Positions 6,908-54,866 of a DNA stretch of 64,000 nt are shown in pieces (within the stretch, counting starts at the first letter, position 1; every line of letters begins with the position of its first letter). Source of the DNA: an uncultured Aquabacterium sp. (GTDB taxonomy: Bacteria > Pseudomonadota > Gammaproteobacteria > Burkholderiales > Burkholderiaceae_C); NCBI RefSeq assembly GCF_913773725.1, contig NZ_CAJYGK010000160.1:124001-188000 (forward strand), given 5' to 3'. The notes beneath the pieces are model-generated. The model worked only from the letters and a program-made list of their open reading frames with translations. It was not told the DNA's origin and searched no databases. Made by a program: the position numbers and the translations under genes.

Positions 6908-7783
6908 TCATCCCTTAAAAACGCCGTCCAGCCAGCCGGTGACGGCGGCCAGCACCTGATCCTGCTCGCGCTCGTTGAACACCTCGTGCGACAGGCGGGG
7001 CCAGGGCACGGCCGTGACCTGCGCAGCGGGGGCCGCTGCGGCAAAGGCCGCCGAGCCTTCGGGGCGGACGCAGCGGTCCTCGCCGCCCCAGGTGATGAGC
7101 GTGGGCACGGACCACTGCGGGGCGCGGGCCAGCACGGTCTCGCCTGCGTCGAGCAGGAAGCGGGTCAGGCGACCGGTGACGCGGTCGTGCACCAGCGGGT
7201 CGGCCTGATAGGCGGCCACGGTGGCCGGGTTGTGGCAGATCCACTCGGGCTTGAGGCCGTTGCCCACGGCCACATCGGGCGTCAGCTTGCCCACGGTGGC
7301 CAGCAGCCCCTTCTGCACGGCGCTGATCGGGATTTGCAGCGCCGGGGAAGACAGCACCAGGGCCTCCACCGGACGCGCCCAGCGGGCCCCTTCGGGCGGC
7401 GAGACCTGCGCAGCCACGAAACGCGCTGCGATCGCCCCGCCCAGGCTGTGTCCGACCATCAGCAGCGGCAGCCCGGGGCAGGCCGCCCGCGCGGCGTCCA
7501 CCACGGCGGCGGTGTCGTGCAGGAAGTCGTCGTCGGCCTGCAGGGCGCCACGCGGGCCGGGCGAGCGACCATGGCCGCGGTGGTCGCAGCCGAAGACATG
7601 CCAGCCCTGGGCGTTCAGGGCCGTGGCCACATGGGCGTAGCGGCCCACGTGCTCACCCAGGCCGTGCACCAGCACGGCCACACCCCGTGCAGGCTGGTCG
7701 GTGGCCAGCGGCCAGGACCTCGCTGCCAGGGACAGGCCGTCGCGGGTCGTCACGGAGTCGGGAAAGCGTGGAGAAAGGCTCAT
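6908..7783 (-). CDS. Alpha/beta hydrolase, monoacylglycerol lipase / lysophospholipase-like
   Basis: A cytosolic serine hydrolase of the Hydrolase_4 family (291 residues). The nucleophile is S113 in GHSLGG; the oxyanion-hole HGLGEH is at 40-45, an acid candidate lies in GGEDRCVRPEGS and the catalytic His in LSHEVFNE near the C-terminus. The FGCDHRGHGRSPGPRG segment is typical of monoglyceride lipases. It lies 37 bp upstream of yaeQ on the same strand, so co-transcription is possible. The substrate is inferred from the family only. Confidence 0.85.
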   Translation of the reverse strand: MSLSPRFPDSVTTRDGLSLAARSWPLATDQPARGVAVLVHGLGEHVGRYAHVATALNAQGWHVFGCDHRGHGRSPGPRGALQADDDFLHDTAAVVDAARAACPGLPLLMVGHSLGGAIAARFVAAQVSPPEGARWARPVEALVLSSPALQIPISAVQKGLLATVGKLTPDVAVGNGLKPEWICHNPATVAAYQADPLVHDRVTGRLTRFLLDAGETVLARAPQWSVPTLITWGGEDRCVRPEGSAAFAAAAPAAQVTAVPWPRLSHEVFNEREQDQVLAAVTGWLDGVFKG

Positions 7784-41182: not shown

Positions 41183-42916
41183 TCAGTGGCCGCTCAGGCG
41201 CAGACCGAGCAGCAGCAGGCAACCCGCCCCCAGCACCGCACTCAGGGTTTGCCAGAACACCACCGGGTTGCGTTCCACCAGCGGGGGGGGGCGGTGGCCC
41301 AGGTAGGCGGCTCCGGGCACATGCAGGTCGTGCACGAACTCGGACAGCGCCTCCTGGCGCCGAGCCGGATCGGGGTGCAGGGCTCGGCGCAGCACGGCGT
41401 CCAGCCAGGCCGGCAGGTCGGGACGCCGCTCACGCAGCGGCACATAGCGCAGGCGCCGCACGTCGGCCGGGGTGCGCACGCGTGGCACCTGCAGGCCATA
41501 GGGCAGGTGGCCGGTCAGCATCTGGTAGCCCAGCACGGCCAGCGAGAACAGCTCGGAGCGGGGGGTGCCGACGCCGCCCGTGAAGTACTCCGGGGCGGTG
41601 TACTGCAGCGAACCGGCGATGGCGTCGGGGCGGGTGGCCGCCGCGCCTTCGGTCAGCCCGGCCACGTGCACCGAGCCGAAGTCGATCAGCCGCACCGTGC
41701 CTGTGCGGTCGATCAGGATGTTTTCGGGGCGCAGGTCCTGATGCAGCATCTCCTTGCGGTGAAAGGCCTGCAGGCCCTTGGCGATCTGGCCCAGCAGATC
41801 ACGCACGGTGTCGAGGTCGGGCGTCGGGTGGTCGGTCATCCACTGGCTCAGTGTCTGACCTTCCACATACTCCATGGCCACGTGCAGGTGTGCACGGGGG
41901 CGGTTGTGCGTGCAGGGCTTGAGCACGTGCGCGCTGTCGATGCGCCGCGCAATCCACTCTTCGAGCAGAAAGCGGTCGAGCAGCGCTGGCTGCTCGCGCA
42001 GCTCGGCCGCCGGGGTCTTCAAGGCCACCTGGCGCCCGGTGGACTCGTCGACGGCCAGCCACACCTGGCTGCGGGCGCTGGTGTGCAGTTCGCGCACCAG
42101 GGTGTAGCCCTCGAACGTGCTCCGGGCGTGCAGCGGCGGAGGCCATTGCAGGGCGGCGCGCTGGGCGCCCAAGGGGTGCGCGTGCGCCTGGGGCAACGCC
42201 CGCACCCGCACGATCTGTACCGTGAGGTTGTCGTCGCTGCCGCGAGCCAGGGCTGTGTCGGCCAGCATGCAGGCGGCGGCGTCCAGGTCATCCGGGTGCG
42301 CGGACAGCGCCGCCTGCACGGCGGCGGCATCCAGGTGCTCCCACACGCCGTCGGTGGCCAGCAGGTAGACCTCGCCGGGCTCGGTGTCCCAGCAGCGGTA
42401 GTCGATCTCGACTGCGGGCCCGGCGCCCAGTGCCCGGCCCAGGTAGGTCTCGGTGGACGACACCCGCACCCGATGGTCTTCGCTGAGTTGTTCCAGCGCC
42501 TGGGGATGCACGCGGTAGACGCGCGTGTCCCCCACATGCAGCAGATGGGCCTCACGCCCCTTGAAGACCAGCGCACTGAAGGTGCAAACGTGGCCCCGGT
42601 CGCGGTCAAAGCGCGCATCGCTGCGCTGGTTCTGCGCGTGCAGCCACGAGTTCGTGGCCTCGAGCACGCGTTGTCCCGACCGCCGCACCGACCACGCCTC
42701 GGAGGTGTCGTAGTAGTCGTCCAGAAAGCCCCGCACGGCGGCGGCACTGGCCACCTGGCTGACCGCGCTGCTGCCGATGCCGTCGGCCAGCGCCACGGCC
42801 ACACCCTTGGTGTGCAGCAGCGGCCCTTCCGGCACGCTCGCGCCATGGAAATCCTGGTTCAGTGCCTTGCGGCCAGCCCGACTGTGCTGGCCGACCAGCA
42901 GTTTCAGGTCGCTCAT
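41183..42916 (-). CDS. Bifunctional PP2C-type phosphatase / Ser-Thr protein kinase
   Basis: A 577-residue fusion. Residues about 1-240 are a PP2C phosphatase (NQDF, ALADGIGSS, VGDTRVYR, LATDGVWEH, SDDNLTV: the metal-binding Asp residues are intact). Residues about 265-530 are a kinase with HQDLRPENILID (catalytic loop) and DFGS; the glycine-rich loop is weak but the VAIK-like lysine is in QVALKTPA. A C-terminal membrane helix (about 545-570) anchors it. Such fusions recur next to nitrate/nitrite uptake genes, as here: the transporter gene ends 28 bp upstream on the same strand. The targets are unknown. Confidence 0.9.
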   Translation of the reverse strand: MSDLKLLVGQHSRAGRKALNQDFHGASVPEGPLLHTKGVAVALADGIGSSAVSQVASAAAVRGFLDDYYDTSEAWSVRRSGQRVLEATNSWLHAQNQRSDARFDRDRGHVCTFSALVFKGREAHLLHVGDTRVYRVHPQALEQLSEDHRVRVSSTETYLGRALGAGPAVEIDYRCWDTEPGEVYLLATDGVWEHLDAAAVQAALSAHPDDLDAAACMLADTALARGSDDNLTVQIVRVRALPQAHAHPLGAQRAALQWPPPLHARSTFEGYTLVRELHTSARSQVWLAVDESTGRQVALKTPAAELREQPALLDRFLLEEWIARRIDSAHVLKPCTHNRPRAHLHVAMEYVEGQTLSQWMTDHPTPDLDTVRDLLGQIAKGLQAFHRKEMLHQDLRPENILIDRTGTVRLIDFGSVHVAGLTEGAAATRPDAIAGSLQYTAPEYFTGGVGTPRSELFSLAVLGYQMLTGHLPYGLQVPRVRTPADVRRLRYVPLRERRPDLPAWLDAVLRRALHPDPARRQEALSEFVHDLHVPGAAYLGHRPPPLVERNPVVFWQTLSAVLGAGCLLLLGLRLSGH

Positions 42917-42944: not shown

Positions 42945-43757
42945 TCAGACAGCGACGCGCTTCGGCGCGGTCTTGTAATGCGTGGAGTACAGCGTGGCGC
43001 CCACGAAGGTCAGGCCGCCCACGAGGTTGCCCAGCACCGTCGGGATCTCGTTCCAGATCATGTAGTCCATGAAGGTGAAGTTGCCGCCCAGCATCAGGCC
43101 CGAGGGGAAGAGGTACATGTTGACGATGCTGTGCTCGAAGCCCATGTAGAAGAACACCAGAATGGGCATCCACATCGCGATGACCTTGCCGGATACGCTG
43201 GTGGACATCATGGCCGCGACCACACCGGTCGAGACCATCCAGTTGCACATCACGGCGCGCACGAACAGCGTCAGCATGCCGGCGGCACCATGAGCTGCGT
43301 AGCCCACTGTGCGGCCTTCGCCGATGTGGCCGATCTTCTGGCCGATGGCGTTGGGCGCTTCGGTGAAACCGTTGGTGAAGATGATGGCCATGAACACGGC
43401 CACCGTCAGGGCCCCGGCGAAGTTGCCGGCAAACACCAGCCCCCAGTTGCGCATCACGCCACCCCAGGTGGCACCCGGGCGGCGGTCCAGCACGGCGAGC
43501 GGGGCCAGCGTGAACACGCCGGTCAGCAGGTCGAAGCCCAGCAGGTAGAGCATGCAGAAACCGACCGGGAAGAGCAGGGCGCCCACCAGCGGGTTGCCGG
43601 TGTTGACCGACACCGAGACGGCAAAAGCCGCCGCCAGAGCCAGGATGGCGCCGGCCATGTAGGCGCGGATCAGCGTGTCGCGGGTGGACATCAGGAGTTT
43701 CGATTCGCCGGCGTCGACCATCTTGGTGACGAACTCGGTGGGGGCGAGGTAGGCCAT
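42945..43757 (-). CDS. FocA/NirC-family formate/nitrite channel
   Basis: A 270-residue inner-membrane channel with six helices, FNT family: RAYMAGAILALAAAFAVS, LLTGVFTLAPLAVLDRRP, NWGLVFAGNFAGAL and FEHSIVNMYLFPSG are conserved elements, including the NxxxP-type end of the last. Context with nirBD and nasR indicates nitrite rather than formate. The start at 43757 has GGAAGGAAG just upstream; an in-frame ATG at 43784 is rejected. A terminator and a hexaloop hairpin in its 290-nt leader suggest antitermination control. Confidence 0.9.
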   Translation of the reverse strand: MAYLAPTEFVTKMVDAGESKLLMSTRDTLIRAYMAGAILALAAAFAVSVSVNTGNPLVGALLFPVGFCMLYLLGFDLLTGVFTLAPLAVLDRRPGATWGGVMRNWGLVFAGNFAGALTVAVFMAIIFTNGFTEAPNAIGQKIGHIGEGRTVGYAAHGAAGMLTLFVRAVMCNWMVSTGVVAAMMSTSVSGKVIAMWMPILVFFYMGFEHSIVNMYLFPSGLMLGGNFTFMDYMIWNEIPTVLGNLVGGLTFVGATLYSTHYKTAPKRVAV

Positions 43758-43808
43758 GGGGCTTCCTTCCAGCAGGGGATGCAATCAGAGGCTGAGCGGC
43801 ACGCGGGC

Positions 43809-43838
43809 AAAAGAAAACGGCGCCCCTTCCTGGCGCCG
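43809..43838 (-). terminator. Intrinsic terminator in the leader of the nitrite channel gene
   Basis: On the minus strand CGGCGCC (43838-43832), a 7-nt loop and GGCGCCG (43824-43818) are followed at once by TTTTCTTTT (43817-43809). It is only 51 bp upstream of the channel start and 210 bp after the nasR stop, so it is more likely an attenuator than the nasR terminator. Another hairpin (CCGGC-CTTACA-GCCGG) just upstream would compete for its left arm. Confidence 0.75.
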
Positions 43839-43915
43839 GCTGTAAGGCCGGGCAGGACGGGACGCCGTCATCCGCGTGTGTGGTGCGGCCCGTGCGGGTG
43901 CATCGGGCCAGGCAT

Positions 43916-43933
43916 CAGGCCGTCGTTGGCCTG
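43916..43933 (-). promoter_or_regulatory. Hexaloop hairpin, candidate NasR (ANTAR) binding site in channel leader
   Basis: On the minus strand CAGGCC-AACGAC-GGCCTG: a perfect 6-bp stem with a six-base loop whose first base is A and fourth is G, the pattern reported for ANTAR-protein RNA targets. It lies 78 nt upstream of the intrinsic terminator. The loop and the following GGC recur in the nirB leader at 49065-49080. Confidence 0.55.
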
Positions 43934-44047
43934 GTGTGCACCGAGAGCATGCAGGTTCTGTGCCGGAATTGGGCGCGCCAAGCGCCACGCGGCGGTGCGT
44001 GATGCGTCACGCGTTGCGCGGAGATGGTGCGCGCACGCCGTGTGTGA

Positions 44048-45361
44048 TCACTTCTGGTGCGTCGAGCCGTGGCGGGCCGCGAACGCGATGTCGGGCAAGG
44101 CCAGCGTCGCCTCTGCCACATCGAGCAGGCGACGGTTGTGGTCCATGGCGGACTTCTGCAGCGCGCGGAAGGCCGCTTCTTCCGTCAGGCCCAGGCGCGA
44201 CATCAGGGCGCCCTTGGCTCGCTCGATGATCTTGCGCTCGTGCAGCGCGCGGCGTGCGGTGTCGAGCTCGGCTTCCATGCTGGCCAGGCGGGCCGACTGG
44301 GTCTGCAGGAGCTCAACCAGTGAGCTCACGGCGGCGCCACCGGGTGCGGCCTTGGTGCCGTCTGCCACAGCCGACAGCACCGGCGCGGCCTCGGGTTGCG
44401 CGGCCGAGTTGAAGAAGCGCTCGACCGCATGGGTGTGCGGCGGCGGGTTGTCGCGCAGCTGGCGCAGCAGGCCTTCCGAGTCCTGCAAGGCCTGCTCGGC
44501 ACGCTGGATCTGGTCGGCGCAGGCCTGGCGCAGGCCATGTACCAGGTCGTTCTGCAGCTGCCCCATCTCGGTGATGCGGGCGCTGCTGACCTCGAACCAG
44601 CTTTCGCTGAGCGCGCTGTCGAGCGCGGCACCGGGGCGCGCCGTGCACAGGGTGCGACGCAGGCGTTCGAGCTGGGCCACCACCGGGGTCAGGTGGTGTT
44701 GCTGCCAGCGGGCACGTTGCGCGTCATCGGCAAACTCTTCGAACACACGCAGGCAGCGCTCCTGGGCGTCGATGAGGTGCACGATGCGCTGCTGCTCGGT
44801 GTCGTCGCAGGTGCCCGAGGCAAACAGCTGCGCGCCCACGGCCCGCTCCTGGCCAGCCGCCTCCTTGCCCTGCACCAGATGCACATAGGCCACCAGCAGC
44901 CGTGAGATGCCCGGGTCGGCCGCGGCATCGGCGAGGTGAAACACCAGCTCCACCAGGCCGGCGATGACCCGGCTGTAGGCGGCGACCGCGTCGTGTGCCG
45001 TGGGGCCGCGCTGCTCGATGGCCGCACGCAGGGCACGCAGCGCGTCCAGGTCCAGCATCACCCAGGCCATCAGCGACAGCGTGCGCGAGGTGGCGCCGTG
45101 TTCGGGCGCCAGTTGTTCGGCGAAGAGCTCGCGCAGGGCGGTCTCGATCGGTTGGGCCTTGTCCACGGCGGTCTGCCGCTCGGTGGCAAAACGCTGTCCG
45201 CCCGACGCCAGGAAGAGGCTGGCCGCACCCCGCTCGCGCTGCAGGGCGTGCACGAGCCGCCCGATGACATCGGCGAGGTCGACGCGCCGGGCGAGCTGCC
45301 GCAAGGCCTCGATGTCGAGTTGCCGGGCACGCAGAACGAGTTGGGAGACGGACAGGGACAT
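44048..45361 (-). CDS. nasR: NasR-type nitrate-sensing transcription antiterminator (NIT + ANTAR)
   Basis: A 437-residue cytosolic regulator. An N-terminal helical NIT nitrate/nitrite-sensing domain spans about residues 30-290 (RERGAASLFLASGG is the NIT start motif). The C-terminal ANTAR RNA-binding domain (about 370-425: ERKIIERAKGALMSRLGLTE, EAAFRALQKSAM) has the conserved aromatic and Ala residues. In Klebsiella, NasR binds nitrate and prevents termination in the nasF leader. Here it lies upstream of the nitrite channel in the same orientation and near nirBD, whose leaders have hexaloop hairpins. Confidence 0.9.
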   Translation of the reverse strand: MSLSVSQLVLRARQLDIEALRQLARRVDLADVIGRLVHALQRERGAASLFLASGGQRFATERQTAVDKAQPIETALRELFAEQLAPEHGATSRTLSLMAWVMLDLDALRALRAAIEQRGPTAHDAVAAYSRVIAGLVELVFHLADAAADPGISRLLVAYVHLVQGKEAAGQERAVGAQLFASGTCDDTEQQRIVHLIDAQERCLRVFEEFADDAQRARWQQHHLTPVVAQLERLRRTLCTARPGAALDSALSESWFEVSSARITEMGQLQNDLVHGLRQACADQIQRAEQALQDSEGLLRQLRDNPPPHTHAVERFFNSAAQPEAAPVLSAVADGTKAAPGGAAVSSLVELLQTQSARLASMEAELDTARRALHERKIIERAKGALMSRLGLTEEAAFRALQKSAMDHNRRLLDVAEATLALPDIAFAARHGSTHQK

Positions 45362-45436: not shown

Positions 45437-45844
45437 TCAGAGGTGGAATTGGCCCGCGGCCTCGGGCTGGAACGGGATGGCTGCCAGCACGGCCCGGCGC
45501 GGCACGCCGTCGAGTCCGGTCCACTGCACCGCTTCGCCCACGCGCTGGCCGATCAGGGCCGCACCCAGCGGGGTCAGCACCGAGAGGCCATCGGACGGGG
45601 TGTCGTGCGGGTAGCTCAGCGTGACCTTCAGCGTGCGGCCGTCTTCGTGGGCCAGCAGCACCACGCTCGATCGCATGGTGACGATCTGCTCGGGCACGGC
45701 CTCGGGCGGGACCAGGTCGGCGAAGTCCAGCACCTCGTTCAGTTGAGACCAGGTTGCGGGCGGGCAGGGGGCCCCGCGTTCGAGCAGGGCGGACAGGCGG
45801 CTGTGGTCGACTTCAGTGACCACGCGGGAAGCAGGGGTTGGCAT
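45437..45844 (-). CDS. rnk: Rnk-like regulator of nucleoside diphosphate kinase (GreA/B C-terminal domain)
   Basis: A 135-residue protein with a short N-terminal helix and a C-terminal GreA/GreB-type FKBP-like domain (VTMRSSVVLLAHEDGR through LTPLGAALIGQRVGEAVQW). Rnk proteins bind RNA polymerase near the secondary channel but lack the Gre acidic coiled coil. It sits between nirD and nasR with no evident functional link to nitrate. A probable promoter is at 46052-46081. Confidence 0.87.
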   Translation of the reverse strand: MPTPASRVVTEVDHSRLSALLERGAPCPPATWSQLNEVLDFADLVPPEAVPEQIVTMRSSVVLLAHEDGRTLKVTLSYPHDTPSDGLSVLTPLGAALIGQRVGEAVQWTGLDGVPRRAVLAAIPFQPEAAGQFHL

Positions 45845-46091: not shown

Positions 46092-46451
46092 TCAGGCGCA
46101 GCGCACGTGCACCCGTCCCCCTTCGACCTGCACGGCGTGGGCCTGCACCGACAGCGCCGGGTCTTCCAGGCAGGCGCCGGTTTCGAGGTCGAAGTGGTGC
46201 TTGTACAGCGGCGAGGCCACCACCACCCGGCCACCCAGGCTGCCGATCAGTCCGCGCGACAGCACGCTGGCGCCGTTCTTCGGGTCGACGTTGTCGATCG
46301 CGAGGAAGCGGTCCGTGCCGATGCGGAAGACGGCGATGTGGCGGGCGCCGATGCGGGCGCACACCCCGGTGTCGGGCAGGATGTCATCGATGGCACACAC
46401 CGGGGTCCAGGTGGTGGTGTCGGGGCGGTCTTGGATCATGTCGGTCTGCAT
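46092..46451 (-). CDS. nirD: Nitrite reductase (NADH) small subunit NirD
   Basis: A 119-residue Rieske-like protein (VCAIDDILPDTGVCARIGAR, then SPLYKHHFDLETGACLEDP) that lacks Rieske cluster ligands, as NirD does. It pairs with NirB to reduce nitrite to ammonium with NADH in the cytoplasm. It starts 16 bp after nirB; the ATG at 46451 gives the usual length, while the upstream open frame (to 46493) overlaps nirB. Confidence 0.92.
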   Translation of the reverse strand: MQTDMIQDRPDTTTWTPVCAIDDILPDTGVCARIGARHIAVFRIGTDRFLAIDNVDPKNGASVLSRGLIGSLGGRVVVASPLYKHHFDLETGACLEDPALSVQAHAVQVEGGRVHVRCA

Positions 46452-46467
46452 GGTGGGCTCGTGCGGC

Positions 46468-48993
46468 TCAGGCGGTGGTCGTGGTGGTGCCATCGCGCTC
46501 TTCGGCGGTGGCCGGGCGGATCTGCCCGCGCTCCGGGACGAACACGATGCGTTCGTCCGGCACGTCGCTGTTGACGAAAGACCGGAAGCGCTTGCGCACG
46601 TCGGGGTTGGTCACCGCGGTCTTCCATTCGCACTGGTAGGTGTCGACCACATGCTGCATCTGGGCTTCGAGTTCGGCACCCAGGCCCAGCGTGTCCTTGA
46701 TCAGCACGTCCTTCAGGTAGTCCAGCCCGCCTTCCAGGTTCTCGCGCCAGGTGCTGGTGCGCTGCAGTCGGTCGGCCGTCTTCACGTAGAACATCAGGAA
46801 GCGGTCGATCAGCCGGACCAGTTCTTCCTTGTTCAGGTCGGACGCGATCAGCTCGGCATGGCGGGGCTTCATGCCGCCGTTGCCGCACACGTACAGGTTC
46901 CAGCCCTTTTCGGTTGCGATGATGCCGATGTCCTTGCCCTGGGCCTCGGCGCATTCGCGGGTGCAGCCCGAGACGCCGAACTTGATCTTGTGCGGCGCAC
47001 GCAGGCCCTTGTAGCGGTTCTCCAGCTCGACCGCCAGGCCCACCGAGTCGCCCACGCCATAGCGGCACCAGGTCGAGCCCACACAGCTCTTCACGGTGCG
47101 CAGGCTCTTGCCATAGGCGTGGCCCGATTCGAAGCCGGCGGCAATCAGCTCTTCCCAGATCAGCGGCAGCTGTTCCACGCGGGCGCCGAACAGGTCGACA
47201 CGCTGCCCGCCCGTGACCTTGGTGTACAGGCCGTACTTCTTGGCCACCTGGCCCACGGCGATCAGCCCGTCTGGCGTGACCTCGCCGCCCGGCATGCGGG
47301 GCACGACGCTGTAGGTGCCGTCCTTCTGGATGTTGCCCAGGTAGTAGTCGTTGCTGTCCTGCAGGCTGGCCAGGTCCTTCTTGAGGACGAACTCGTTCCA
47401 CACCGAGGCGAAGATGGACGCGGCCGTGGGCTTGCAGATGTCGCAGCCCAGGCCCTTGCCATGCTTGGCCAGCAGGTCGGCAAAGGTCTTGATCTGGCCG
47501 ACGCGGACCAGGTGATAGAGCTCCTGGCGCGAATAGGGGAAGTGCTCGCACAGGTGGTTGTTGACCGCCATGCCGCGCTTGGCCATCTCGGCCTTCATCA
47601 CCTGGGTGACCAGGGGCACACAGCCGCCGCAGGTGGCGCCGGCCTTGGTGCACGACTTCAGCTGCGCAATGGTGGTGGCGCCGTCGGCCACGGCCGCACA
47701 GATCTGGCCCTTGCTCACGCTGTTGCACGAGCAGATCTGGGCGCTGTCGGGCAGGGCGTCCGGGCCCAGGCCGGGCTTGGCCTTGCCGTCGCTGCTGGGC
47801 AGGATGAGGAACTCGGGCTCGGCGGGCAGGGTGATGCCGTTGAGCGCCATCTGCAGCAGCGTGCCGTATTCATCGGCATTGCCCACCAGCACGGCGCCCA
47901 GCAGCTTCTTGCCATCGGCACTCACCACGATCTTCTTGTAGACCTGCTTGACCTCGTCCACGTACTGGAACGAGCGGCAGCCCGGCGTGCGGGCGTGCGC
48001 GTCGCCGATCGAGGCCACGTCCACGCCCATCAGCTTGAGCTTGGTGCTCATGTCGGCGCCGGTGAAGGCGGCCTCGGCCTCGCCGGCGATGTGGCGGGCG
48101 GCCACGCGGGCCATGTCGTAGCCGGGGGCGACCAGGCCGAAGGTTTGGTCCTGCCAGGAGGCGCATTCGCCGATGGCGTAGACGTTGCGGTCGCTGGTGC
48201 GGCAGTGGTCGTCGATGACGACGCCGCCCCGTGCGCCGATGGCCAGCACGCACTGGCGGGCCAGTTCATCGCGCGGGCGGATGCCGGCGGAGAACACGAT
48301 CATGTCGGTGTCGAGGTGGCTGCCGTCCTCGAATACCATGCGGTGGCGGTGCTCGGCGCCGTCTTCGATGCGCACGGTGCTGTGGCTGGTGTGCACGCGC
48401 ACGCCAAGCTCCTCGATCTTGGCGCGCAGCACGCGGCCGCCCTGGTCGTCCACCTGCACGGCCATCAGGCGCGGGGCGAACTCGACCACGTGGGTTTCGA
48501 GGCCCATGTCGCGCAGCGCCTTGGCGCATTCCAGGCCCAGCAGGCCGCCGCCGACCACGACGCCGACCTTGGACTTCGCGCCCGAGGCCTTCATCTTGTC
48601 GAGGTCGTCGATCGTGCGGTAGACAAAGCAGTGCGGGCGGTCGCGGCCCGGGATGGGCGGCACGAAGGGGTTGGAGCCCGTGGCGATCACCAGCTTGTCG
48701 TAGGGCAGCACCTCGCCGTCGAGGGTGGTGACGGTGTGGTTGCGGCGGTCGATGCTGGCGGCGCGGCAGGCCAGGCGCAGGTCGAAGCCGGTGCGGTCGA
48801 AGAAGCCGGGCTCGACCAGGGACAGGTCCTGGGCGGTCTTGCCCGAGAAGTATTCGGAGAGGTGGACGCGGTCGTAGGCGGGGCGCACTTCCTCGCACAG
48901 CACGGTGACCTGCGCATCGCGCACGCCCGCTTCTGCGAGGCTTTCAAGGAATTTGTGGCCGACCATGCCGTGGCCAACGAGGACGATCTTCAT
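46468..48993 (-). CDS. nirB: Nitrite reductase (NADH) large subunit NirB
   Basis: An 841-residue assimilatory nitrite reductase. Domains in order: FAD and NAD binding (GHGMVGHKF at the start; VGVVVGGGLLGLECAKALRD), a BFD-like [2Fe-2S] domain (CSCNSVSKG and CTKAGATCGGC, residues about 420-460), and two ferredoxin-like/sirohaem repeats with the 4Fe-4S/sirohaem cysteines in SCVGSTWC and GCTREC. A GCAGGAG ribosome site precedes the ATG. The 259-nt leader carries hairpins, one with the ANTAR-type loop. The operon is nirBD; no nitrate reductase gene is in the window. Confidence 0.95.
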   Translation of the reverse strand: MKIVLVGHGMVGHKFLESLAEAGVRDAQVTVLCEEVRPAYDRVHLSEYFSGKTAQDLSLVEPGFFDRTGFDLRLACRAASIDRRNHTVTTLDGEVLPYDKLVIATGSNPFVPPIPGRDRPHCFVYRTIDDLDKMKASGAKSKVGVVVGGGLLGLECAKALRDMGLETHVVEFAPRLMAVQVDDQGGRVLRAKIEELGVRVHTSHSTVRIEDGAEHRHRMVFEDGSHLDTDMIVFSAGIRPRDELARQCVLAIGARGGVVIDDHCRTSDRNVYAIGECASWQDQTFGLVAPGYDMARVAARHIAGEAEAAFTGADMSTKLKLMGVDVASIGDAHARTPGCRSFQYVDEVKQVYKKIVVSADGKKLLGAVLVGNADEYGTLLQMALNGITLPAEPEFLILPSSDGKAKPGLGPDALPDSAQICSCNSVSKGQICAAVADGATTIAQLKSCTKAGATCGGCVPLVTQVMKAEMAKRGMAVNNHLCEHFPYSRQELYHLVRVGQIKTFADLLAKHGKGLGCDICKPTAASIFASVWNEFVLKKDLASLQDSNDYYLGNIQKDGTYSVVPRMPGGEVTPDGLIAVGQVAKKYGLYTKVTGGQRVDLFGARVEQLPLIWEELIAAGFESGHAYGKSLRTVKSCVGSTWCRYGVGDSVGLAVELENRYKGLRAPHKIKFGVSGCTRECAEAQGKDIGIIATEKGWNLYVCGNGGMKPRHAELIASDLNKEELVRLIDRFLMFYVKTADRLQRTSTWRENLEGGLDYLKDVLIKDTLGLGAELEAQMQHVVDTYQCEWKTAVTNPDVRKRFRSFVNSDVPDERIVFVPERGQIRPATAEERDGTTTTTA

Positions 48994-49064
48994 GTGTGCT
49001 CCTGCGACGGAAACCAGATGGGGGGATAAGCAGCGGGCACCCGGGGCGCGGGGCCGGCTCTCGT

Positions 49065-49080
49065 CCGCCGTCGTTAGCGG
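49065..49080 (-). promoter_or_regulatory. Hexaloop hairpin, candidate NasR (ANTAR) binding site in nirB leader
   Basis: On the minus strand CCGCT-AACGAC-GGCGG: a 5-bp stem (closing U-G wobble) with the loop AACGAC, identical to the loop in the nitrite-channel leader (43916-43933) and having A at loop position 1 and G at 4. It lies 72 nt before the nirB start. No intrinsic terminator with a T-run follows it. Confidence 0.5.
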
Positions 49081-49109
49081 AGATCACATGTGTGCGCCGG
49101 GGCGTCACT

Positions 49110-49130
49110 ACCTTGGGCACACGCCAAGGT
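49110..49130 (-). promoter_or_regulatory. Second hairpin in nirB leader
   Basis: A perfect 7-bp inverted repeat ACCTTGG / CCAAGGT with a 7-nt loop, 30 bp upstream of the hexaloop hairpin. Its role is unknown; it could be an operator or part of the structured leader. Confidence 0.4.
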
Positions 49131-49200
49131 TTACGCAATATGTGTGCCGATCTGGTTTCGTGGGGCAAGGGGCAGGGAAGACCGCCTGCGAGGGCATCGG

Positions 49201-49252: not shown

Positions 49253-50170
49253 TTACTTCAGCAGGCCGGTCGAGCGGCCCACCTGCTCGATCACGTCGAA
49301 GTCTTCCACCTTGGCCGGCACGAAGCGCTTGGCACCCTGCAGCGCCATCACGGCCTGGTCCGCCGGGTCGCTGGCTTCCAGTTGCATGAAGGCGTTGGCG
49401 AACTTCTGCACCGTGGCCGGCGGCAGGTCCTTGCGCGCTGCCCACACGTAGTCCACGAAGGGCGGCGTGGTCCAGATCACCTTGACCTTGTTCTTGTCGA
49501 ACTTGTCGCCCGCCACCAGGCGGTTCCACACCTCCATGTTGAGCGCGCCGGCCTGCACCTTGCCCGACTCGACCATCTTCACCGTTGCATCGTGGGCGCC
49601 GCTGTAGATCGGGGCGCCGGCGAAGTCCTTGTCCGGATCGATCTGGAAGCGCGAGCTCAGGAAGTGCCGCGGGAACAGGTGCCCGGAGGTCGAGCTCTTG
49701 GCGCCGAAGGCGAAGCTCTTGCCGCGCAGCTCCTCCGGCTTGCTGATGCCCGAGGCCGTGTTGACGATGAACACGCTGTGGAACTCGCGGTCGATGTCGC
49801 GCATCACCACGGGGCGCGCGCCGGCCAGCACCTTGGCCTGCACGAAGGTGAAGCCGCCCAGCCACGCGAAATCGACCTTGCCGGCCGCCAGGGCCGAGAC
49901 GGCCGCGCCGTAGTCGATCACCGGCACGTACACCACCTTGACGCCCAGGTGCTTCTGCAGGTGGTCGATCAGCGGCTGGTACTTGCGTGCCAGCTCGGTC
50001 GGGTTTTCGTCGGGGATGCCCGAGACGCGGATCACATCCTGAGCCTGGGCATGGGCGGCGCCCAGCCCCAGCGGGCTCAGCGCGCTCAGGCCGAGCAGCG
50101 TGGCGGTGGCGGCCAGCGCGGTGCGGCGCGCGCGGGACACGGTCGACGGGCGGGTGGACAGGCGTTTCAT
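49253..50170 (-). CDS. Phn/Ptx-like ABC transporter substrate-binding protein, probable selenium oxyanion binder
   Basis: A 305-residue periplasmic protein with a signal peptide (cleavage near AHA-Q, about residue 41). The phosphonate-binding-like fold is indicated by RVSGIPDENPTELARKYQPL, GKVDFAWLGGFTFVQA and a GKSFAFGAKSSTSGHLFPRH loop. PhnD-like proteins bind phosphonate, phosphite or phosphate; a clade encoded beside selD/selU is annotated in protein-family collections as putative selenate-binding. Here the operon is selU-ATPase-permease-this gene, divergent from selD, so a selenium oxyanion is the favoured ligand. That is context-based, not tested. Confidence 0.85.
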   Translation of the reverse strand: MKRLSTRPSTVSRARRTALAATATLLGLSALSPLGLGAAHAQAQDVIRVSGIPDENPTELARKYQPLIDHLQKHLGVKVVYVPVIDYGAAVSALAAGKVDFAWLGGFTFVQAKVLAGARPVVMRDIDREFHSVFIVNTASGISKPEELRGKSFAFGAKSSTSGHLFPRHFLSSRFQIDPDKDFAGAPIYSGAHDATVKMVESGKVQAGALNMEVWNRLVAGDKFDKNKVKVIWTTPPFVDYVWAARKDLPPATVQKFANAFMQLEASDPADQAVMALQGAKRFVPAKVEDFDVIEQVGRSTGLLK

Positions 50171-51960
50171 GGGTCAAGGCTCCTTGAGGGGGGATTCGGG
50201 TTGGAGAGGTGGGCCGCCGGATCGCACGCCGGCAGCGGCAGGCGGGCCACGCGGCCCTGCAGCAGGCGGGACCGCAGCCGGTCGCCCAGCGCGTCCACGG
50301 CCGTCACCAGCAGCAGCATGGTCAACAGCAGCACGCCCAGGTCGTGCAGGTGGAACAGGCTGATGGCCGTGTTGAGCGCATCGCCGATGCCGCCGGCGCC
50401 GACGAAGCCCACCATGGCCGTGGCGCGCACGTTCACTTCGAAGCGGTAGAGCGTCAGCGCCGCCAGCCGGGCCTGCACCTGGGGCAGCACGCCGAACAGA
50501 AAGGTGGCCAGCGTGCCGGCGCCCAGGCTTTGCAGCGCGGCGGGCGGGCCGGGCTCGGCCTCTTCCAGCACGTCGGCATACAGCCGCCCCATCACGCCGA
50601 TGTTGTGCACGGCGATCGCCAGGATGCCGGCCAGCGGCCCGCCACCGACCCACACGACGAAGACCAGGGCCAGCGTGAGCTCGGGCATCACGCGGGTGAA
50701 CTGCAGCACCACGCGGCTGACCAGGGCGCCGACCGGGCGCAGCCACCGCCCGGCGCCGCGTGGGCGGGGCGGGTCGACCAGGTAGCTGCCCACGCTCAGG
50801 CGGGCTGCGCCCAGCGGCGCCAGCACGAAGGCCACGAGCGCCGACAGCAGCGTGGCCACCCAGGCCATCCACAGCGTGTCGGTGATCTGGCCGGCTGCAA
50901 GTTTCAGGAAGGCCGTGTCGATGGCCAGGGTGTCGAGCCGGGGCAGCAGGGCGGTCTGGGCGCCGCTGAACAGGTCGCGCCACGGGATGTCGAGCCGCAT
51001 CAGGGCCCACACGGTGCCCACGGCGCCGAGGCCCAGCGTCCAGCGGGTGGGCGCGCGCCGCAGCCGGTTGCTCAGCCATTCCAGCGCCACGACAAAGCCC
51101 AGCACGGCGATCAGCGTGGTGGCCAGTTTGTCGTACTGGAAGTAGCGCAGGCTGAGCGCGATCTCGCTGCCCAGTCCGCCGGCGCCCACCACACCCAGGA
51201 TGGAGCCGATGCGGATGTTGCACTCGAGGCAGAACAGCGCGTAGCCCGTCCACTGTCGGCCGACCTGGGGCAGCACCGCATGCAGGAACAGCGCCCAGCG
51301 CGAGGCTCCGGCGGCACGCAGGGCCTGCACCGGGCGGGGATCGACCGCCTCGGCCAACTCGGCGAACAGCTTGCCGATGTTGCCGCCCACCGTGAGCCCG
51401 ATGGCCAGCACCGCCGCACCCGGTCCCAGCCCCAGCCACTGCACGAACAGGTAGGCCCAGACGATTTCGGGCACGGCGCGGCAGACGCCCAGCAGGCCGC
51501 GTGCGGTGCTGCGGCTGGCGGCCAGCGCCGCGCGAACGGCCCTGGGCGGCGGCCGGGGCGGGTCGACCAGATCCGGCACGCGGGTGGCGAAGAACGCCAG
51601 CAGGGTGCCCAGGCCTGCAGCCAGTGCCGTGCCCAGCAGGCCGATCAGCAGGCTCTCGATCGACAGGTCGAGCACGCGCTGCAGGAACTCGGCGGACAGG
51701 TCCGGTTGCCGGAAGCCGCTCAGGATGTCGCCGGCGTTGCGCAGGCCGTCGGCGTCGAACAGGCGCAGCGGGTCGGCGCCCGTCCAGGCCAGGCAGAGCA
51801 GGCCGCTGAGCGCCAGACCCAGCCACAGCACGAAGCGCGACAGGGCCTGGCGCCGCGCCGCGTGCAGCGAGCCCGGGCCGGTCGTGTCACGCCACAAGGG
51901 CCCGGCGTCGGGCCCGGCGGTGGTCACGCGGGGCTCAGAGCCGCTCGTTGCTGCCGGCAT
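50167..51960 (-). CDS. Fused double permease of Phn-like ABC importer
   Basis: A membrane protein of about 597 residues in which two PhnE-type permeases are joined. Each half has an EAA-like loop (AVDPRPVQALRAAGASRWA and EEAEPGPPAALQSLGAG) followed by a GAGG segment (GVVGAGGLGSEI and GFVGAGGIGDAL). Two halves in one chain replace the usual homodimer or PhnE1/E2 pair. It overlaps the ATPase gene (ATG at 51960; a GTG at 51927 is an alternative start without overlap) and the binding-protein gene by 4 bp. It is the channel of the selU-linked importer. Confidence 0.88.
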   Translation of the reverse strand: MPAATSGSEPRVTTAGPDAGPLWRDTTGPGSLHAARRQALSRFVLWLGLALSGLLCLAWTGADPLRLFDADGLRNAGDILSGFRQPDLSAEFLQRVLDLSIESLLIGLLGTALAAGLGTLLAFFATRVPDLVDPPRPPPRAVRAALAASRSTARGLLGVCRAVPEIVWAYLFVQWLGLGPGAAVLAIGLTVGGNIGKLFAELAEAVDPRPVQALRAAGASRWALFLHAVLPQVGRQWTGYALFCLECNIRIGSILGVVGAGGLGSEIALSLRYFQYDKLATTLIAVLGFVVALEWLSNRLRRAPTRWTLGLGAVGTVWALMRLDIPWRDLFSGAQTALLPRLDTLAIDTAFLKLAAGQITDTLWMAWVATLLSALVAFVLAPLGAARLSVGSYLVDPPRPRGAGRWLRPVGALVSRVVLQFTRVMPELTLALVFVVWVGGGPLAGILAIAVHNIGVMGRLYADVLEEAEPGPPAALQSLGAGTLATFLFGVLPQVQARLAALTLYRFEVNVRATAMVGFVGAGGIGDALNTAISLFHLHDLGVLLLTMLLLVTAVDALGDRLRSRLLQGRVARLPLPACDPAAHLSNPNPPSRSLDP

Positions 51961-52690
51961 AGAGCTGGTCCAGGCGCGCCTCGGTGGCGTCCTGCGGGGC
52001 ACAGTCGAACAGGATCTCGCCGCGGCGCAGGCCGATCACGCGGGTGCAGTCCTGTCGGGCGATGTCGAACCAGTGGGTGCAGAACACCAGCGTCATCCCG
52101 CGCAGGCGGGCCTGTTCGGTGATCAGGCGCGTCACGGCCTTGGCGGTGTGCGGGTCGAGCGAGGCGGTCGGCTCGTCGGCCAGCAGGATGTCGGGCTCGG
52201 ACACCAGCGCGCGGGCGATGGCCACCCGCTGCATCTGCCCGCCGCTCAGCGCGCCGGCCAGGGCCCACTGGTGGGCGCCCATGTCGAGGGATTGCAGCAG
52301 CGCGGCCACCCGCTCGGCTTGCACCGGCCACAGCGCCGCGGCCAGCGTGCGCCACCACGGCCAATGCGGCAGCAGCCCGGCCAGCACATTGCGGTGCACC
52401 GTGGCCTGCGGCACCAGCAGGTTCTGTTGCTCGACGATGCGGCAACGTGCCCGGTGGCGTTGCAGCGCACGCCAGCCCATGCGGTCCAGCGGTGTGCCGT
52501 CCACGTCGATCGTGCCGGCGGTGGCGCGCAACGCGCCGGCCATCAGGCGGATCAGCGTGGACTTGCCCGCCCCGCTGGGGCCGATCAGGGCGATGCGCTC
52601 GCCCGGCTGCACGCGCAGCGACAGGTCGCGCAACACCGGTGTGCCGCCCCAGTGGCGGCTGACGCCCTTCAGTTGCAGCTCAACCGACAT
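51935..52690 (-). CDS. Phn-like ABC importer ATP-binding protein
   Basis: A 251-residue ABC ATPase: Walker A GPSGAGKST, Q-loop in IVEQQNLLV, signature LSGGQMQR, Walker B ILLADEPTASLD and the switch His in FCTHWF. It is closest in pattern to PhnC (phosphonate importer). Its ATG lies inside the last codons of selU, an 11-bp overlap, which couples it to selenium modification. An ATG at 52723 is possible but would overlap selU more. Confidence 0.9.
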   Translation of the reverse strand: MSVELQLKGVSRHWGGTPVLRDLSLRVQPGERIALIGPSGAGKSTLIRLMAGALRATAGTIDVDGTPLDRMGWRALQRHRARCRIVEQQNLLVPQATVHRNVLAGLLPHWPWWRTLAAALWPVQAERVAALLQSLDMGAHQWALAGALSGGQMQRVAIARALVSEPDILLADEPTASLDPHTAKAVTRLITEQARLRGMTLVFCTHWFDIARQDCTRVIGLRRGEILFDCAPQDATEARLDQLYAGSNERL

Positions 52691-53768
52691 GGGCGCGGGG
52701 TGTTTCAGGCTGATCGACGGCATCCCGCGCGAGCAGCGCGGCCGCCAGCGCATCGATCCCGGCCTCGTCCAGCGATGCGCCCGGCACCGTCTGCCGCTCG
52801 GCCCAGCGGTGGAAGTGCGTGGCCTGCGAGCGCGCGTACTGCGGGTCGTAGTGCAGGCGGGCCAGTTCCTCGAACAAGGGCGCAAGCTGCCGTGTCTGCG
52901 CCCAGCCTTGCCAGCGCTCGATCGTCTCGGCGCCCAGCAGCGGGCGCAGGGGCTCGAGCTTGCGCACCAGCGCGTCCGCGTCGTCGCCCAGGTAGGCGTA
53001 GTCGCGCAGCAGGAAGGCCAGCCGGGCATCGAAGGGCACGTCCAGCTCGATGCAGGGGCTGGCGCGCAGCCGCTCCAGCAGGGGCGTGGGCAGCGCGATG
53101 CGGCCGATCTTGCGGCTCTCGGCCTCGACGTACACCGGCCGGCTCAGGTCCAACTGCTCGATCTGTTCGGCCAGCCGGGTTTCGAAGGCCTTCTGAGAAG
53201 GCTGGGGCACGCCGGGCAGCGCGCCCAGCAGCGAGCCCTTGTGGCAGGCCAGGCCTTCCAGGTCGATGACCTGGGCGCCCCGCGCCGCCAGGGCGTGCAG
53301 CACCCGCGTCTTGGCACTGCCGGTGGCGCCGCACACCACACGCAGCGGCAGTTGCGGGCATTGCGCTTCCAGCACCGCCAGCACGTGATGGCGCCAGCGC
53401 TTGTAGCCCCCGGGCAGCTGCTGGGCATCCCAGCCCACCAGGCGGAACCAGTTCACCATCGAGCCGCTGCGCATGCCACCACGCCAGCAGTACACCAGCG
53501 GCTTCCAGTTCGCGGGCTTGTCGGCGAGGTGCTCGCGCAGGTGCCGGGCCAGGTTGGCGGCCACCATGGCGCCGCCCACACGCCGGGCCTCGAACGCGCC
53601 CTGCTGTTTGTAGATCGTGCCGACGATGTGGCGTTCTTCGTCGTCCAGCACCGGCAGGTTGATGGCGCCGGGGACGTGGTCGAGCGCAAACTCGGCAGGC
53701 GAGCGCGCGTCGATCAGGCAGTCGAACTGGTGGCGGTCTTCGATGCGGACCGGGGCGCGTGCACTCAT
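52680..53768 (-). CDS. selU: tRNA 2-selenouridine synthase
   Basis: A 362-residue SelU/MnmH enzyme that replaces the 2-thiouridine sulfur at tRNA position 34 with selenium, using selenophosphate from SelD and a geranylated intermediate. The N-terminal rhodanese domain has the active-site Cys at 94 (YCWRGGMRSGS) and a P-loop-like GATGSAKT at 147-154 in the C-terminal domain. It is divergent from selD across 45 bp and heads the operon with the Phn-like importer. The ATG at 53768 is used; the open frame upstream overlaps selD. Confidence 0.94.
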   Translation of the reverse strand: MSARAPVRIEDRHQFDCLIDARSPAEFALDHVPGAINLPVLDDEERHIVGTIYKQQGAFEARRVGGAMVAANLARHLREHLADKPANWKPLVYCWRGGMRSGSMVNWFRLVGWDAQQLPGGYKRWRHHVLAVLEAQCPQLPLRVVCGATGSAKTRVLHALAARGAQVIDLEGLACHKGSLLGALPGVPQPSQKAFETRLAEQIEQLDLSRPVYVEAESRKIGRIALPTPLLERLRASPCIELDVPFDARLAFLLRDYAYLGDDADALVRKLEPLRPLLGAETIERWQGWAQTRQLAPLFEELARLHYDPQYARSQATHFHRWAERQTVPGASLDEAGIDALAAALLARDAVDQPETPRAHVG

Positions 53769-53813
53769 GCCGCAGCCCCCGCTGGCACAATTGCCGCGTA
53801 CTTCTGTTGACCG

Positions 53814-54866
53814 ATGATGTCCATTGCGCTGACCCAGTTCTCTCACGGTGGCGGCTGCGGCTGCAAGATTGCCCCGGGCCTCCTGTCCGAGATTTTGTCA
53901 CGGGCCCCTCAGGGGCTGGTGCCGCCCGAGCTGATGGTCGGCCTGGAGACCAGCGACGACGCGGCCGTCTACCGCCTCAACGACCAGCAGGCGCTGGTCG
54001 CCACCACCGATTTCTTCACCCCCATCGTCGACGACCCGCGTGACTTCGGCCGCATCGCCGCCACCAACGCGCTGTCGGACATCTACGCCATGGGCGGCAC
54101 GCCCATCATGGCGCTGGCGCTGGTCGGCATGCCCATCGCCAAGCTGCCGCCCGAGGTCATCGGCCAGATCCTGGGCGGTGGCGCCGAGGTGTGCCGGGCC
54201 GCGGGCATCCCGATCGCCGGCGGCCACTCCATCGACCTGCTCGAACCCATCTATGGCCTGGTGGCGCTGGGTCTGGTCCACCCCGACCGCGTGCACCGCA
54301 ATGCCGATGGCCGCGCCGGTGACGTGCTCGTGCTGGGCAAGCCGCTGGGCGTGGGCATCCTGTCGGCCGCACTCAAGAAGGGCCGGCTGGACGAGGCCGG
54401 TTACGCGCAGATGCTGCGTCACACCACGCAACTCAACCGTGTGGGGGCCTCCCTGGGCGCCATGCCGGGCGTGCGCGCCATGACCGACGTGACCGGCTTC
54501 GGTCTGGCGGGCCACCTGCTGGAGGTGTGCCGCGGTTCCGGCCTGGATGCCGAGGTGGCGCTGACCCGGCTGCCGCTGATCGAGGTGGCGGCCGGTTTTG
54601 CGCGCGAAGGCATCGTCACCGGCGCATCGGGCCGCAACTGGGCGGCCTACGGTGCCGAGGTGACGTGGCCCGAGCAGGCCGAGGCCTGGCAGCAGGCGCT
54701 GGTGTCGGATCCGCAGACCAGCGGTGGCCTGCTGGTGAGCTGCGCCCCCGAGGCGGTGGACGCCGTGCTGGCCGCCATGGCCGCCGAAGGCTGTGGTGAA
54801 GCCGCGGTGATCGGCACGCTGCGCGAGCCCGCCACACCGGGCGCGCCCCGGCTGCATTTCGCCTGA
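53814..54866 (+). CDS. selD: Selenide, water dikinase
   Basis: A 350-residue SelD, which makes selenophosphate from selenide and ATP. The catalytic loop is HGGGCGCKIAP: the catalytic residue is Cys (C15, with K18) rather than selenocysteine. The AIRS ATP-binding motif is in VATTDFFTPIVDDP, and the later VTGFGLAGHLLE and DPQTSGGLLV segments are intact. ATG ATG at 53814/53817. No selA, selB or selC is in the window, so here SelD supports at least tRNA selenation by SelU. Confidence 0.95.
   Translation: MMSIALTQFSHGGGCGCKIAPGLLSEILSRAPQGLVPPELMVGLETSDDAAVYRLNDQQALVATTDFFTPIVDDPRDFGRIAATNALSDIYAMGGTPIMALALVGMPIAKLPPEVIGQILGGGAEVCRAAGIPIAGGHSIDLLEPIYGLVALGLVHPDRVHRNADGRAGDVLVLGKPLGVGILSAALKKGRLDEAGYAQMLRHTTQLNRVGASLGAMPGVRAMTDVTGFGLAGHLLEVCRGSGLDAEVALTRLPLIEVAAGFAREGIVTGASGRNWAAYGAEVTWPEQAEAWQQALVSDPQTSGGLLVSCAPEAVDAVLAAMAAEGCGEAAVIGTLREPATPGAPRLHFA

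Follow-up and report, generated by a model that had tools for sequence, protein, structure and literature searches.

The closest described relative of the arrangement analyzed here is the NasR/nasF system of Klebsiella oxytoca, in which a NIT-ANTAR regulator is reported to act on tandem hexaloop hairpins in a leader whose terminator overlaps the second hairpin (PMC3369931, PMC7496416), and in which nasF is reported to be under Ntr control (PMC5424462). According to published work, RNA binding by K. oxytoca NasR strictly requires nitrate or nitrite, and its full affinity is attained only with both hairpins, a single hairpin being bound more weakly (PMC7496416), and the ANTAR dimer has been proposed to meet the two hexaloops one after the other (PMC8934654). 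The eut leaders of Enterococcus likewise combine a dual hexaloop ANTAR target with an overlapping terminator; EutV, however, relays a two-component signal, and the linkers between the hairpins of eut leaders are reported to span 5-12 nt, longer ones being inactive (PMC3369931, PMC8934654). The NasS-NasT system, with the NalA leader of nirBD in Pseudomonas putida, resembles the present locus in its ANTAR antitermination, its sigma-54/NtrC start and its association with nirBD, but its sensor is a separate protein, NasS, and the available portion of the review describing it mentions no channel leader (PMC12830290). In general terms, ANTAR RNAs have also been predicted to precede "nitrate and nitrite transporters" (PMC3369931); this is a bulk prediction, and the portion of that paper considered here describes no NasR-channel unit. 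Among the matches listed in the open-licence PMC literature, we found no NasR leader preceding an FNT gene and no structured ANTAR linker. The novelty of the locus presented here lies in its target, its structured linker and its two-leader layout, the principle of antitermination being already known.

In K. oxytoca, nasR is located just upstream of nasF. On the minus strand of the window, that is, the whole 64,000-nt stretch of DNA analyzed here, the gene order is nirB, nirD, a GreA/GreB-C-terminal (Rnk-like) gene, nasR, an FNT (formate/nitrite transporter) family channel gene and a PP2C phosphatase/kinase fusion (Table 1), which agrees with the neighbours that an earlier note, made from the letters alone, had assigned to the leader. 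Unlike nasF, to the extent that its leader can be compared by description, the target here is thus an FNT channel together with a kinase/phosphatase instead of nasFEDCBA. The nearest solved relative of the window NasR is the nitrate regulatory protein of PDB entry 4akk (E 8e-45), which is the structure of K. oxytoca NasR (PMC7496416). By the alignment offset, residues R340, K341, K345 and K347 of the latter correspond to R376, K377, R381 and K383 in the window; R340, K345 and K347 are reported to have been tested for RNA binding, with K345R similar to the wild type, and K341 is reported to be conserved. E191 and R193, described as partners in autoinhibition, fall by this offset on T187 and Q189, and the contacts of the off state may therefore differ. 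The channel belongs to the FNT family by its Pfam match, but its score against the NirC model is 39.7 bits for a cut-off of 293, it also falls under the NCBIfam cut-off of FocA, and its nearest PDB sequence is LCIA (9v2a), with algal LCIA and FocA closer to it by sequence than NirC. Since the protein scores under both cut-offs and its nearest solved relative is LCIA, the name nitrite channel rests on context, and nitrite is a putative substrate. The genome of the window contains both rpoN and ntrC and a narG that scores far over its cut-off, while its five molybdopterin matches all fall short of the cut-off set for a model of assimilatory nitrate reductase; the source of nitrite could be respiration or outside supply.

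Table 1. Features of the nasR-channel region and of the nirB leader in the window
Feature	Positions	Strand	Basis
Sigma-54-type -24/-12 site GGCACAGAACCTGC, GG-N10-GC	43951..43964	-	Spacing kept in relatives
P1 hexaloop hairpin CAGGCC-AACGAC-GGCCTG, loop with A1 and G4	43916..43933	-	Compensatory changes
P1-P2 linker, 42 nt, with its own (spacer) hairpin	43874..43915	-	Fold z -3.19
P2 hexaloop hairpin GGAT-GACGGC-GTCC (RNA GGAU-GACGGC-GUCC), putative antiterminator	43860..43873	-	Found in 40 of 41 leaders; covariance-model match 43935-43860
Intrinsic terminator hairpin, left arm ACGGCGTCCC overlapping P2, right arm GGGGCGCCGT	43817..43868	-	Alignment pairing; minimum-energy fold
CCGGC-CTTACA-GCCGG, apex of the terminator	43836..43851	-	Minimum-energy fold; sequence not conserved
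U-tract TTTTCTTTT after the GC-rich hairpin	43809..43817	-	Read in the sequence
FNT family channel, 270 aa, ATG at 43757	42945..43757	-	Pfam PF01226, 213 bits
PP2C phosphatase/Ser-Thr kinase fusion, next gene after the channel	41183..42916	-	Domain search; neighbour kept in most relatives
nasR, NIT-ANTAR one-component regulator, 437 aa	44048..45361	-	Pfam NIT 172.5 bits, ANTAR 70 bits
nirB and nirD, nitrite reductase subunits	46092..48993	-	Pfam/NCBIfam model matches
Sigma-54-type site before nirB, GGCACACATATTGC	49135..49148	-	Leader scan
P1' hexaloop hairpin of the nirB leader, GGT-AGTGAC-GCC, 3 bp	49101..49112	-	Hexaloop rule
P2' hexaloop hairpin of the nirB leader, TCCGCT-AACGAC-GGCGGA	49064..49081	-	Hexaloop rule

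The gap between nasR and the channel gene measures 290 nt and contains, in this order, the sigma-54-type site, P1, the linker, P2, the terminator and the U-tract. The sigma-54 consensus and its -24/-12 numbering would place a transcription start near 43939, in which case the terminator would lie inside the leader; a scan of 43600-44200 found no sigma-70 sites. P1 is the hairpin with an AACGAC hexaloop that the earlier note had recognized, and the T-run stands, as stated there, 51 nt before the channel start. The intrinsic terminator it proposed is present as well, although the 7-bp stem drawn for it represents a shorter, local form of a more extended hairpin (43868-43817). Its choice of CCGGC-CTTACA-GCCGG as the competing hairpin, on the other hand, has to be abandoned: the minimum-energy fold makes this segment the apex of the long terminator (ACGGCGUCCC...GGGGCGCCGU), its loop is devoid of A1 and G4, and the apex differs in a second genome of the genus (G061) even though the NasR of the latter is identical at 436 of 437 residues. 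The true competitor, P2, had been overlooked.

As expected of an ANTAR target, the leader comprises two hexaloop hairpins with stems of at least 3 bp (6 bp in P1, 4 bp in P2), the second of which overlaps an intrinsic terminator, and it is linked to a NIT-ANTAR protein, whose gene is adjacent in most loci. It departs from expectation in two respects. The loop of P1 has both A1 and G4, but that of P2, GACGGC, has G4 together with G at position 1, where the published NasR SELEX prefers A (PMC7496416); and the linker, instead of being short, spans 42 nt by sequence, of which the predicted fold leaves 11 nt single-stranded beyond the linker's own hairpin. These two features also distinguish it from the nasF leader as described. 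In agreement with the attenuator reading of the earlier note, the whole leader is more stable than all 200 dinucleotide shuffles (z -4.58). The terminator segment in isolation folds at -44.4 kcal/mol, against -21.7 kcal/mol with P2 forced, and this cost of about 23 kcal/mol implies that termination is the default and that P2 has to be held by a protein. A composite rule demanding two hairpins with RANG hexaloops, the second overlapping an intrinsic terminator, has a single match on both strands of the 64 kb, which is this leader, on a background of 99 hexaloop hairpins and 16 terminator-like sites, the rule having been composed with the sequences already known.

NasR was searched in 61 genomes, including that of the window, and 45 of them match at E 0.001, some through a short ANTAR stretch only. 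The channel follows nasR in 14 of the 30 loci examined (window included), and in all 14 of these genus leaders GG-N10-GC is found 28-31 nt before P1, with P1, P2 and the T-run following, the patterns having been composed after the sequences were known. In the genus alignment of P1 and P2, 99.3% of 140 cells pair, as compared with at most 46.8% in slid versions, and one P1 pair is A-U in seven sequences and G-C in the other seven. P2 is invariant across the genus; since it never varies, its invariance alone proves nothing and its conservation is inseparable from that of the terminator. Two pairs of this alignment are changed on both sides, which 71 of 500 shuffles reach, but its covariation score is reached by none of the 500. 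A similar picture emerges for the terminator in the genus, where 94.3% of the cells pair (at most 63.6% in slid versions) and two pairs show changes in both partners, a number that 152 of 500 shuffles attain, with a covariation score reached by one of the 500.

A covariance model (R1) trained on 14 sequences, that of the window included, has one strong match in the genome of the window (53.3 bits; next 16.6) and 18 strong matches in 42 genomes of the genus, one per genome, at 48-68 bits, four of these genomes (G061, G062, G063 and G065) being outside the training set. The next genus match reaches 25.8 bits, and matches up to that score were taken as background, 37 of the 42 genomes having some match at E 0.1. 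The composite rule matches in 15 of 33 loci, which are the 15 with nasR followed by the R1 element or the channel, and has no other match in these loci. In 399 genomes of the family, 21 match R1 at E 0.001, with 22 matches. Outside the genus, eight of 19 R1 matches lie between nasR and the channel, one precedes a channel without nasR in the 1.5-kb flank and one follows a 41% NasR without a channel in the flank; the remaining nine (L193, L194, L196-L202), with E-values down to 8.6e-6 and no nasR or nirC neighbours, were taken as chance. In line with the leader assignment of the earlier note, a second model (R2), built from 23 elements that carry no label of this genus, recovers the element of the window at 51.7 bits (E 2.7e-10; next match 13.4 bits), and it is to be regarded as held out but not blind, because its sequences had been obtained by means of R1 or through their linkage to NasR. 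In the alignment of these 23 sequences, changes in both partners affect three P1 pairs (15 of 500 shuffles reach this number), the double changes amount to eight cells (one of 500), and P2 pairs in every row, its closing pair being U-G in 16 and C-G in seven.

A wider set of 41 leaders, which includes near-duplicates and one channel start set by hand (L141), was analyzed with a single script. P2 was found in 40 of them, P1 together with the sigma-54-type site, scored jointly, in 37, and a terminator starting in or at the edge of P2 in 36. The script missed P1 in L195, L203, L132 and L133, an interrupted stem being visible by eye in L195, L203 and L133, and it missed the terminator in L100 and L023, where a hairpin is followed by TTCTTTTT, in the U-poor L187, in L133, where none is seen by eye, and in L136, which has no P2. 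In the leader of L140 (Burkholderia cenocepacia, 7545-7616), the P2 loop reads AACAGC, and the terminator begins with the final base of P2, so that the two overlap by one base only. These features of L133, L136 and L140 count against a switch. G occupies loop position 1 in 10 of 37 P1 and 19 of 40 P2 hairpins, A being the other base seen there and some leaders having G1 in both loops, and it occupies position 4 in 39 of 40 P2; position 4 of P1 is no test of G4, as the P1 rule itself required it.

Over 80 loci, R1 has 45 matches at E 0.01. The element occurs in several genera of the Burkholderiales, the cultured Aquabacterium soli SJQ9 (L138) included, and two bins labelled Rhodocyclaceae also carry it. 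In loci of Hydrogenophaga, Variovorax and Xylophilus whose NasR is about 40% identical, the R1 match follows nasR and no channel comes after it; scores are 37.8 bits in Xylophilus and from 34 down to 18 bits in the others, and several such loci have no match. The nasR-linked leaders of nitrate-transporter operons in Hydrogenophaga and Variovorax carry a similar P1/P2/terminator element just after nasR, but their P2, unlike that of the window, closes with C-G. Nitrate ABC transporter genes follow in L149, where the genes after the element exceed the cut-offs set by NCBIfam for nitrate ABC permease and ATPase and a NirB-like gene lies further on; L184 has frames that look similar by eye, plus a NirB-like gene. 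Rfam gave no match above the gathering score in the window or in 16 loci of relatives. Two candidates below it in the leader, narK RNA (14.9 bits, gathering 43.2) and ctRNA_p42d (26.6 bits, E 6.5e-4, gathering 50), were discarded; neither turned up in the relatives' loci (16 searched at gathering, nine at E up to 1) or in the nirB leader.

Within the genus, the channel is present in 20 of 42 genomes and the element in 18, all of them among the 20, so that two genomes, G033 and G006, have the channel and no element. The order in G033 is nirB-nirD-nirC-PP2C-nasR, which puts the channel behind the nirB leader and inside the nirBD operon; no element precedes it there. In G006 (L239) the order is nirB-nirD-nirC-PP2C and no NasR match was obtained. 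Its nirC leader keeps a sigma-54-type site (TGGCACGAAAGCTGC), 96 nt from the ATG, and shows neither P2 nor a run of four T, and its nirB leader also keeps such a site (TGGCACGCATATTGC). No R..G hexaloop hairpin of at least 3 bp is found in the two G006 leaders; in the window the same rule recovers P1 and P2 (in the stricter RANG form), P1' and P2', and one more hairpin beside the nirB ribosome-binding site. G006 would thus be a natural case in which the regulator is absent along with the attenuators and the promoter-type sites stay. Among the six genus genomes checked for nirB (G006, G007, G009, G023, G031 and G064), a close nirB (85-86%) was found in G006 and G064 only; G064 has NasR, whereas G007, G009, G023 and G031 have no full-length NasR. 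The loss of NasR with that of the hairpins is therefore a single natural case, since only G006 combines a close nirB with no NasR, and it comes from one draft genome, given as 94% complete, in which the absence at the locus itself was read directly.

These distributions bear on two alternative explanations. Given its position behind nasR, the hairpin would also halt transcripts running on from the nirBD-nasR operon, and it might accordingly be a constitutive terminator of that operon, accompanied by a hexaloop hairpin by chance. We deem this very improbable, because the promoter-type site upstream places the hairpin in the channel's own leader, tandem hexaloops with the overlap occur once in 64 kb, the element recurs in other genera and is matched by the held-out model, the nasR-less G006 is also without it, and genus genomes with nasR and without the channel have no strong R1 element. 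Alternatively, the leader could be an ANTAR switch on which another protein acts, given that the genome encodes two ANTAR proteins, the second being a receiver-ANTAR response regulator on contig C71 (L002). That a protein other than NasR is in charge seems scarcely credible in view of the position of the element, which adjoins nasR in most loci; G023 and G031, which have short ANTAR matches and no full-length NasR, are also without a strong R1 element, but this argument is weak because both lack the channel too.

Hence, it appears highly probable that the 43939-43809 leader is a NasR-dependent antitermination switch of the nasF kind, as the earlier note had anticipated for a gene of the FNT family; the tandem hexaloops, the terminator overlap, the sigma-54-type site, the presence of the element in other genera, the match of the held-out model and the joint absence with nasR in G006 all argue for it. 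The motif, its overlap with the terminator, the promoter-type site, the association with these genes and the lack of the motif in a relative devoid of nasR are shown by sequence comparison. We infer NasR binding, a nitrate response and the direction of control at this leader, and nitrate as the signal is suggested by the NIT domain and by homology to 4akk. RNA polymerase with sigma-54 would start near 43939, probably activated by NtrC under nitrogen shortage. As long as neither nitrate nor nitrite is present, the nascent RNA would form the strong terminator at 43868-43817 and transcription would end ahead of the channel. NasR carrying nitrate or nitrite would grip P1 and then the weak P2, and, since P2 uses part of the left arm of the terminator, the latter could not form and the channel and kinase/phosphatase genes would be transcribed. 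The hairpin in the 42-nt linker may keep P1 and P2 close. It is also conceivable that NasR acts mainly on read-through from the nirBD-nasR operon and not on a sigma-54 transcript, as the genes are collinear and the start at 43939 is deduced from the site itself. We regard this as unlikely, for the spacing between GG-N10-GC and the P1 that follows it hardly varies in 37 of 41 leaders (by joint scoring) and the sigma-54-type site is kept in G006 while the rest of the leader is gone. If it operates as outlined, the NasR-dependent switch extends NasR antitermination from nitrate-assimilation operons to a channel and a kinase/phosphatase.

The linker deserves separate consideration. Induction by EutV is reported to be lowered with linkers of 3 or 14 nt, in a paper that defines the linker as variable (PMC3369931), and to be abolished by 20 nt added to it (PMC8934654), while linkers of 2-25 nt were accepted for actinobacterial ANTAR targets (PMC8164766); these limits are an EutV result and a curation rule, and are not known for NasR. 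We measured 40 linkers, a set that leaves out some loci (e.g. L009, L024, L190, L132, L133), and found eight of 7-15 nt, with 7 nt in L026, and 32 of 23-60 nt. All but three of the 32 long ones (L189, L153 and L175) fold better than the shuffle mean, with a mean z of -1.9 (window -3.2), values that come from related, non-independent sequences with ends cut by a fixed offset from the model match; their predicted folds leave 2-20 nt unpaired at the ends. One seven-row alignment of the spacer hairpin, with two rows misaligned, contains three double-change pairs and a score reached by 23 of 500 shuffles, which lends it weak support. We propose that the spacer hairpin accounts for the 42-nt linker of the window in the face of the EutV limit. 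With linkers of 7-60 nt that are bimodal in length and mostly structured when long, the way in which an ANTAR dimer meets two hairpins becomes testable.

A second NasR-type leader, at nirB and mostly without a T-run, is, together with the structured 42-nt linker, the unusual aspect of the locus. A permissive rule, run without a control, finds a tandem pair and a sigma-54-type site in 39 of 39 nirB leaders, picking an evidently wrong P1' in a few rows (e.g. L073 and L089). A run of four T follows P2' in seven of the 39, and the nirB leader of the window (49148-48994, minus strand) has no clear U-tract terminator. The loop and 3' arm of P2' include CGACGG, which can pair with CCGTCG (49010-49005), a stretch immediately 5' of the nirB ribosome-binding site. 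This six-base complementarity is perfect in 16 of 39 nirB leaders, as compared with a mean of 0.6 and a maximum of 6 after shuffling; in six (L072, L090, L119, L120, L122 and L123) it needs G-U pairs to be complete, in the other 17 it is incomplete, and one compensated case was identified, L133, with CGATGG and CCATCG. The position of nasR behind nirBD raises the possibility of feedback by NasR on its own operon, and the layout suggests one sensor with two leaders flanking its own gene. A tentative and rather doubtful extension is that NasR runs the two leaders differently, preventing the terminator at nirC, where the spacer hairpin would hold P1 and P2 across the linker, and freeing the translation start at nirB or acting there through a poor or Rho-type terminator. 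Should this two-way reading be true, the EutV linker limit would be one of distance in space, not of sequence length.

Several minor observations concern the surroundings of the leader. The PP2C/kinase fusion adjoins the channel in most loci, L136 and L140 being the exceptions. The GreA/GreB C-terminal gene (45437-45844, minus strand), similar to a regulator of nucleoside diphosphate kinase and just below the NCBIfam cut-off, occupies the position between nirD and nasR in a few relatives only (L004, L025, L027, L090 and L091). In the last of these (L091, from G061), NirB, NirD and NasR are nearly identical to those of the window, but the terminator apex is not the same and PP2C stands at 91%, which looks as though the two ends of the locus differed in their history. 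Finally, a selenium cluster (49253-54866) lies 5' of nirBD, with a binding protein that exceeds the cut-off of TIGR04553, a putative selenate family, followed by MnmH (tRNA 2-selenouridine synthase), and with a divergent SelD.
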